Assembly: GCA_018656005.1 (NCBI GenBank) | Contig: JABHZW010000006.1 | Location: 1-32,018 of the forward strand | DNA from: Candidatus Pseudelusimicrobium marinum | GTDB lineage: Bacteria > Elusimicrobiota > Elusimicrobia > Elusimicrobiales > Elusimicrobiaceae | DNA length: 32,018 nucleotides | Reading direction: 5' to 3' | Shown here: positions 1,553-8,313 of the stretch, piece by piece | Position numbering within the stretch: position 1 is the first letter of the stretch | Layout: each line of letters begins with the position of its first letter | Made by a program: the position numbers and the translations under genes | The notes under the pieces: model-generated | What the model saw: the letters and a program-made list of their open reading frames with translations, nothing else | The model's database searches: none | What the model was told of the DNA's origin: nothing

Positions 1553-1577
1553 GTAAATTGTTAATATAAAATAATTA

Positions 1578-1606
1578 TTTACATAAAATTTAAAATTGGG
1601 TACAAT
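1578..1606 (+). promoter_or_regulatory. Sigma70-type promoter in the lpxI-ddl gap
   Basis: TTTACA (1578-1583) and TACAAT (1601-1606) are separated by exactly 17 bases, close to the sigma70 consensus. Transcription should start near G1613. No + strand gene follows, only the candidate small RNA and then the antisense strand of ddl. That makes a dedicated RNA promoter the simplest reading. Confidence 0.6.
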
Positions 1607-1612
1607 ATTATT

Positions 1613-1706
1613 GCCTTATTTAAAAAAAGGCATAGTTAAAAATTAAATAAGGCAATAAATTTTTCTGTTGGTATTTATTTTTTAGTGGCAAAGCCACTCC
1701 TTTTTT
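1613..1706 (+). ncRNA. Candidate small RNA, about 94 nt
   Basis: Predicted start is near 1613, 6 nt after a consensus-like -10 box; the predicted end is the T-run of an intrinsic terminator at 1684-1706. A 14-bp inverted repeat (1610-1623 with 1643-1656) puts the 5' end in a hairpin with a 19-nt loop. An alternative short hairpin pairs GCCTT (1613-1617) with AAGGC at 1627-1631 instead of AAGGC at 1649-1653, so two 5' folds compete. There is no credible ORF inside. Part of its 3' half (1674-1691) repeats the antisense of the ddl 3' end, so it could pair with ddl mRNA. I do not recognise the family. It could instead be an over-engineered terminator region for lpxI. Confidence 0.45.
1684..1706 (+). 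terminator. Intrinsic terminator of the candidate sRNA / lpxI unit
   Basis: AGTGGC (1684-1689), an AAA loop and GCCACT (1693-1698) are followed by CC and six T (1701-1706). The T-run is on the + strand only; on the - strand the hairpin is followed by an A-run. It therefore ends + strand transcription, not ddl. Confidence 0.7.
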
Positions 1707-8175: not shown

Positions 8176-8256
8176 CATTAATATATCTTTTTAACTAAAT
8201 CCAAAGAAATCAGGTCCACTATTGACTTTTGAATTTTCACTAAACAATTTACTAAT

Positions 8257-8298
8257 AAAAAACAGGCAGGTTCGAAAAAACGAACCTGCCTGTTTTTT
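8257..8298. terminator. Strong bidirectional terminator
   Basis: An 18-bp perfect stem (8257-8274 with 8281-8298) has a 6-A loop. The stem begins with six A and ends with six T, so it gives a G+C-rich hairpin and U-run on both strands. It separates the converging argS-side genes and the merR-side operon. Confidence 0.93.
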
Positions 8299-8313
8299 AT
8301 GTTTAAATTATTT

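Follow-up and report, generated by a model that had tools for sequence, protein, structure and literature searches.

A seven-copy promoter–hairpin repeat family in the genome of Candidatus Pseudelusimicrobium marinum

The Locus and Its Genomic Setting

The window analyzed here, that is, the whole stretch of 32,018 nucleotides, is contig C23 of the 1.20-Mb, 62-contig genome of Candidatus Pseudelusimicrobium marinum, the completeness of which is approximately 93%. The G+C content of the window is 31.7%, and the genome is AT-rich and Elusimicrobiota-like; the six best relatives of the ddl protein in public genomes all belong to Elusimicrobia, with 37–40% identity in the best segment. The site under study occupies the gap between a + strand gene located 5′ of it and ending at 1511, which we take to be lpxI, and ddl (1740–2768) on the − strand. 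The first-pass annotation of this DNA had noted the lack of a following + strand gene; none is present up to 2.8 kb. Directly past lpxI, at 1522–1552, there is a separate 12-bp perfect hairpin without a T run.

The intergenic unit is approximately 100 bp long and consists of an upstream block (CTAAYACAAANNAATTA), a −35 hexamer (TTTACW), 17 bp, a −10 hexamer (TACAAT or TAAAAT), 1 base, and an inverted repeat (Table 1). The promoter-like sequence TTTACA-17-TACAAT, which had been correctly read at this site, shares 10 of 12 positions with the sigma-70 consensus, with G1613 being the seventh base past the −10 hexamer. The inverted repeat had also been seen, but as 14 bp; it contains 16 perfect pairs (1608–1623 with 1643–1658) around a loop of 19 nt, and reaches to 1 base from the −10 hexamer. 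It is the second longest in the window. The longest, at 8255–8300, has 20 perfect pairs around a 6-nt loop and is terminator-like on both strands.

Promoter-like and terminator-like matches are, taken singly, within chance (18 promoter-like sites in the window against 19.4 expected from shuffles, and one terminator-like match, the hairpin at 1684–1698 followed by CCTTTTTT, against 2.0 expected), and the 16-bp perfect repeat is beyond chance, with no perfect repeat of at least 16 bp in 12 shuffles of the window. The 94-nt RNA proposed in the first-pass annotation is predicted to fold with −19.9 kcal/mol (z = −2.1), and 7 of 200 shuffles fold equally well.

Table 1. Positions of the features between lpxI and ddl in the window
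Feature	Position	Strand	Observation
Conserved block upstream of −35, consensus CTAAYACAAANNAATTA	1561–1577	+	Pattern finds 7 genomic copies; control 0
−35 hexamer, TTTACA	1578–1583	+	TTTACW in 7/7 copies; mean pairwise identity 0.90
−10 hexamer, TACAAT	1601–1606	+	TACAAT in 5/7, TAAAAT in 2/7; 17-bp spacing in 7/7
Stem, 5′ arm, 16 bp	1608–1623	+	108/110 hand-aligned cells paired, 7 copies
Putative transcription start	1613	+	Purine 7 nt past −10 in 7/7 copies
19-nt loop, centre GGCATAGT	1624–1642	+	Resembles loops of other copies, directly or inverted
Stem, 3′ arm	1643–1658	+	Paired with 1608–1623
ATTTTT past the stem	1659–1664	+	Possible end of a shorter RNA of ~52 nt; similarity to closest copy stops here
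Second repeat element, TGTNATGTNGTCACGAAAAACAAAAAAGGAG + GTGGC/GCCAC	1683–1738	−	9 genomic places; boundaries approximate
Terminator-like hairpin and T run	1684–1706	+	Part of second dispersed repeat family
ddl	1740–2768	−	Name taken from the first-pass annotation

Seven Paralogous Copies of the Unit

The strong evidence lies in paralogous copies of the unit, which were out of the earlier reader's view. When the own genome was searched at the DNA level, window 1562–1664 matched a second copy with 89% identity over 103 bp, and promoter-only matches turned up elsewhere; this pair of copies diverges on both sides of the shared 103 bp. Searching the same genome with model R1 gave seven copies, and model R2 gave the same seven at 79–96 bits, with the next matches at or below 22.8 bits besides the same hairpins on the opposite strand (35–41 bits). 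A pattern comprising the bases up to and including the −35 hexamer alone likewise found the same seven places, with none from a reversed-pattern control, and thus, with up to 3 mismatches allowed, every occurrence of the block in the genome is joined to the hairpin. Exactly seven copies, labeled from their contigs as win, C45a, C45b, C17, C28, C44, and C59, are scattered in the genome, always in intergenic positions, with one overlapping a stop codon.

The −35 hexamer is TTTACA in four copies and TTTACT in three. Mean identity is 0.90 for the −35 hexamer, 0.92 for the −10 hexamer, and 0.66 for the spacer; upstream, 22 bases are conserved at 0.66, the same as the spacer, and the bases beyond at 0.31. 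In all seven copies, the stem begins 1 base past the −10 hexamer and a purine stands 7 nt past it; the arms are 16 bp long (14 in C44), and the loops are 19 or 21 nt. The stretch at 1561–1658 is one copy of this seven-copy, genome-specific unit, in which a sigma-70-type promoter block is joined to a stem-loop. The proposal of a promoter with a structured RNA is supported by the seven paralogues, the hexamers exactly 17 bp apart, and the covarying stem. The anatomy described in the first-pass annotation is real, but its extent differs, the recurring unit being 1561–1658 with the terminator outside. The elements defining a length of 94 nt are at the site, but this length is not a family trait, since the closest copy shares only ~1562–1664.

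Stem Covariation and Apparent Loop Inversion

The stem-loop keeps its pairing while its sequence changes across the copies. In the model-fitted alignment, which leans to the structure, 96.4% of 111 stem cells are paired, and both partners have changed in 13 of the 16 pairs. The covariation score is 0.815 compared with 0.224 in shuffles that leave the relatedness of the copies in place (none of 500 reaching it), and pairing falls to ~50% when the partner is slid by one column. Because the MAFFT alignments A2–A4 misplaced part of the 3′ arm, the arms were also paired by hand. This pairing, independent of the model-fitted alignment, gave 108 of 110 paired cells in the seven copies, although the stem sequences differ. 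When arms were paired across copies, 6–13 of 16 positions matched among the first five, and 15–16 in the near-identical pair win and C45b.

If the start is at +7, pairs 1–5 would each have a 5′ half outside the transcript; 35 of 35 such cells are paired, and pairs 3–5 show three or four pair types each. Selection on an RNA hairpin alone would leave this pairing on the presumably untranscribed side unexplained. The loops were also compared between copies (21 comparisons, with uncorrected shuffle P values). Those of C45a and C45b are identical at 14 of 19 positions when one is inverted, as its reverse complement, and at 7 of 19 in direct orientation, and the loop of C28 shows a weaker inverted likeness (12 vs. 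7 direct); in the remaining pairs, the two orientations are equal or the direct one is favored, as in C17/C28 (14 direct, 6 inverted).

Covariation usually counts as proof that an RNA stem is under selection. Because presumably untranscribed bases pair and loops appear inverted, it is not taken as such proof alone here. Arm homogenization and loop inversion are described as footprints of replication template switching in the sections consulted of two papers (PMC8604942; PMC8794818), and the arm pairing upstream of the likely start, together with the apparent loop inversion, fits homogenization of this kind. With strong covariation reaching promoter bases outside the likely transcript, the family is a natural case for testing whether such a signal can arise from template switching alone. 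A speculative extension, to which we give little credence, is that the unit represents a promoter class in which the DNA hairpin abutting the −10 hexamer is an evolving part, with template switching matching the arms and flipping the loop. Were this so, the copies would vary the RNA 5′ end and the promoter-proximal DNA structure while keeping structure constant, and the system would either diversify small RNAs or couple promoter activity to cruciform extrusion.

Possible Ends of the Predicted Transcript and Neighboring Genes

A T run lies directly past the hairpin in three of the seven copies (win, C45b, and C59, the copies with 19-nt loops), and the copies with 21-nt loops have a G-rich stretch there (GTGGGG or similar). 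Good terminator-like hairpins occur further downstream in win, C17, and C45a, as found by a scan restricted to loops of at most 8 nt, to which the main hairpin is invisible. Taken together, some termination signal is present in five of the seven copies, with C28 and C44 lacking a convincing terminator. The gene downstream of C44 is presumably a cdsA-like gene. Downstream of C28, at ~1440–1500 (−) of locus L078, there is a tandem-like motif (AATTTTRGGTRGTRAAAATTTT), and further intergenic stretches also contain GGTGG motifs.

The upstream neighbor is on the same strand as the unit in all seven copies, at gaps of 49, 13, −4, 463, 23, 105, and 66 nt. It is conceivable, although improbable, that the unit is a 3′ element of the upstream gene, with read-through mRNA carrying the whole stem as a 3′ end or terminator and the conserved block being RNA rather than promoter. 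Pairing over the full stem would then be explained without any problem of the start, and the shared strand, the gaps of −4 to 105 nt in six of the seven copies, and the three stems leading straight to a T run are consistent with such a role. On the other hand, four of the seven copies have no T run past the stem, C59 is 463 nt from its gene, and three of the gaps are convergent, so that orientation is uninformative there; moreover, the conserved block is promoter-like, with a spacing of exactly 17 bp.

Our best reading, held with moderate confidence, is instead a family of small transcription units that is confined to this species and probably non-coding. Each copy would be a small transcription unit of its own, in which RNA polymerase would start at the purine 7 nt past the −10 hexamer and produce a short RNA with its 5′ end inside, and capped by, the hairpin. 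Two ends are possible for the RNA from the window: the T run past the stem, giving ~52 nt, or the neighboring repeat's terminator-like hairpin, giving ~94 nt. As arms and loop differ among the copies, any pairing target should differ too; since bases ahead of such a start also pair perfectly, template switching is probably responsible, at least in part, for the matched arms and the occasional inversion of the loop.

A Second Repeat Element and the ddl-Like Stretch

The terminator recognized earlier, a hairpin at 1684–1698 with a T run, does exist, but belongs to a different repeat family; an RNA of 94 nt would therefore span two repeats. This second element, in which TGTNATGTNGTCACGAAAAACAAAAAAGGAG precedes a short hairpin that varies in sequence, occurs at nine places (up to 3 mismatches), all intergenic and in either orientation relative to genes, including directly upstream of genes that we take, from their sequences, to be xerC-like and murA-like. 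At some places, its GGAG is positioned like a ribosome-binding site before these genes. Both flanks of the second element carry 18 bp of the ddl 3′ end as a direct repeat (1673–1692 vs. 1737–1755). The stretch shared with ddl, from which contact with ddl mRNA had been suggested, is real, but is a local direct repeat.

The proposal of mutually exclusive 5′ folds rested on GCCTT, which indeed occurs once (1613–1617), and AAGGC, which occurs twice (1627–1631 and 1649–1653). It is not supported: the closest copy has ATGGC in place of the first AAGGC, and the alternative hairpin is predicted at −5.5 kcal/mol compared with −11.5 kcal/mol for the main stem from G1613. A single 94-nt small RNA with a 5′ conformational switch and pairing with ddl mRNA thus seems very improbable. 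The promoter, stem, terminator, and shared stretch do exist, but the switch bases are lost in the closest copy, the alternative fold is weaker by 6 kcal/mol, and the terminator and the ddl-like bases are another repeat and its flanking direct repeat.

Distribution of the Unit

A pattern search of 90 genomes of the family was positive for the own genome only. Model R1 gave 2 positives among 60 relatives, the own genome included, and model R2, among the 149 genomes of the order, gave the own genome and one weak match in the 148 others, both under stricter filters, at the cost of some weak matches. The family search of 90 genomes contained no other species of the genus, nor did the 22 entries listed for the order search. 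The weak model matches in relatives scored 28 bits (G031) and 35.9 bits (G009, at E = 0.02 for a single genome of 149). The match in G009 has TAAAAT, 1 base, and a 16-bp stem, but a 19-bp spacing and a different block, and was not counted as a copy. A weak match of this form, in another genus of the family, lies at 1501–1596 (−) of locus L095, with TAAAAT, 1 base, and a 16-bp stem before a gene that is presumably TolC-like.

The DNA search returned matches in 50 of 60 genomes, including the own genome, at E ≤ 1, the best outside the own genome being 2.6e-5 over 36 nt. None of the 29 loci fetched from other genomes qualified as a copy; R2, run on all 29, gave one weak match (21.9 bits), and six of the loci were read. 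Three patterns had no match in viral contigs. At the gathering threshold, Rfam matched only tRNAs in the window and the six further copy loci, and a relaxed search of 1500–1760 gave best matches far below threshold; the earlier statement that the form belongs to no named family is correct for Rfam. Xer/dif sites, integron attC sites, retron leaders, and CRISPR leaders were considered and dropped for lack of fit.

This distribution bears on a serious rival, which we consider possible but unlikely: the unit may be a small non-autonomous repeat of the mobile-promoter or MITE type, spread within the lineage, with any RNA being a by-product and the stem being kept by template switching alone. Such a repeat would account for the restriction to one genome, the always intergenic copies, the two recent copies that are 89% identical over 103 bp and diverge on both sides, the arm matching that reaches past the likely transcript, and the apparent loop inversion, a template-switch footprint in the sections consulted of PMC8604942 and PMC8794818. 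Against it, no terminal repeats or target duplications were seen by eye at the copies inspected, where there were no empty sites for comparison; no Y1 transposase (PF01797) was matched in the ~93% complete genome; and conservation is higher in the hexamers than in the spacer, unlike in a decaying repeat.

Comparison with Known Systems

The promoter–hairpin family is real, and no description of it was found in the literature searched, where nothing on small RNAs in this phylum was found either. REP/REPIN sequences, MITEs, and mobile promoters are short, dispersed, intergenic, hairpin-bearing, and lineage-restricted, and the unit resembles them in each of these respects; in contrast to them, it has a variable hairpin and a constant promoter-like block. 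A RAYT (Y1) transposase, expected alongside REP/REPIN sequences, had no match in this genome. Intrinsic terminators likewise have a stem-loop, and a T run is present in three of the seven copies; however, the loop of 19–21 nt, the AT-rich stem base, and the four copies without a T run set the unit apart from that class.

In LhrC1-5 and CsrB-type families, the RNA itself is recognizably conserved. The likeness to such multicopy (sibling) small RNA families lies, as far as the material consulted on them goes, in several dispersed copies per genome with their own promoters: here, there are seven copies, each with its own promoter as judged from conserved −35 and −10 hexamers at 17 bp, and the conserved RNA structure takes the form of a covarying stem. 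The difference from LhrC1-5 and CsrB is that the promoter is constant and the RNA arms diverge through paired changes. If the copies are transcribed, they would form a small-RNA family in which the promoters stay constant and the hairpins have diversified. Template-switch hairpins, too, show arms altered by paired changes of several bases and loops that are inverted; the examples in the sections consulted are from RNA genes and yeast coding sequences (PMC8794818; PMC8604942), whereas in the present unit the hairpin abuts a −10 hexamer in a repeat family.
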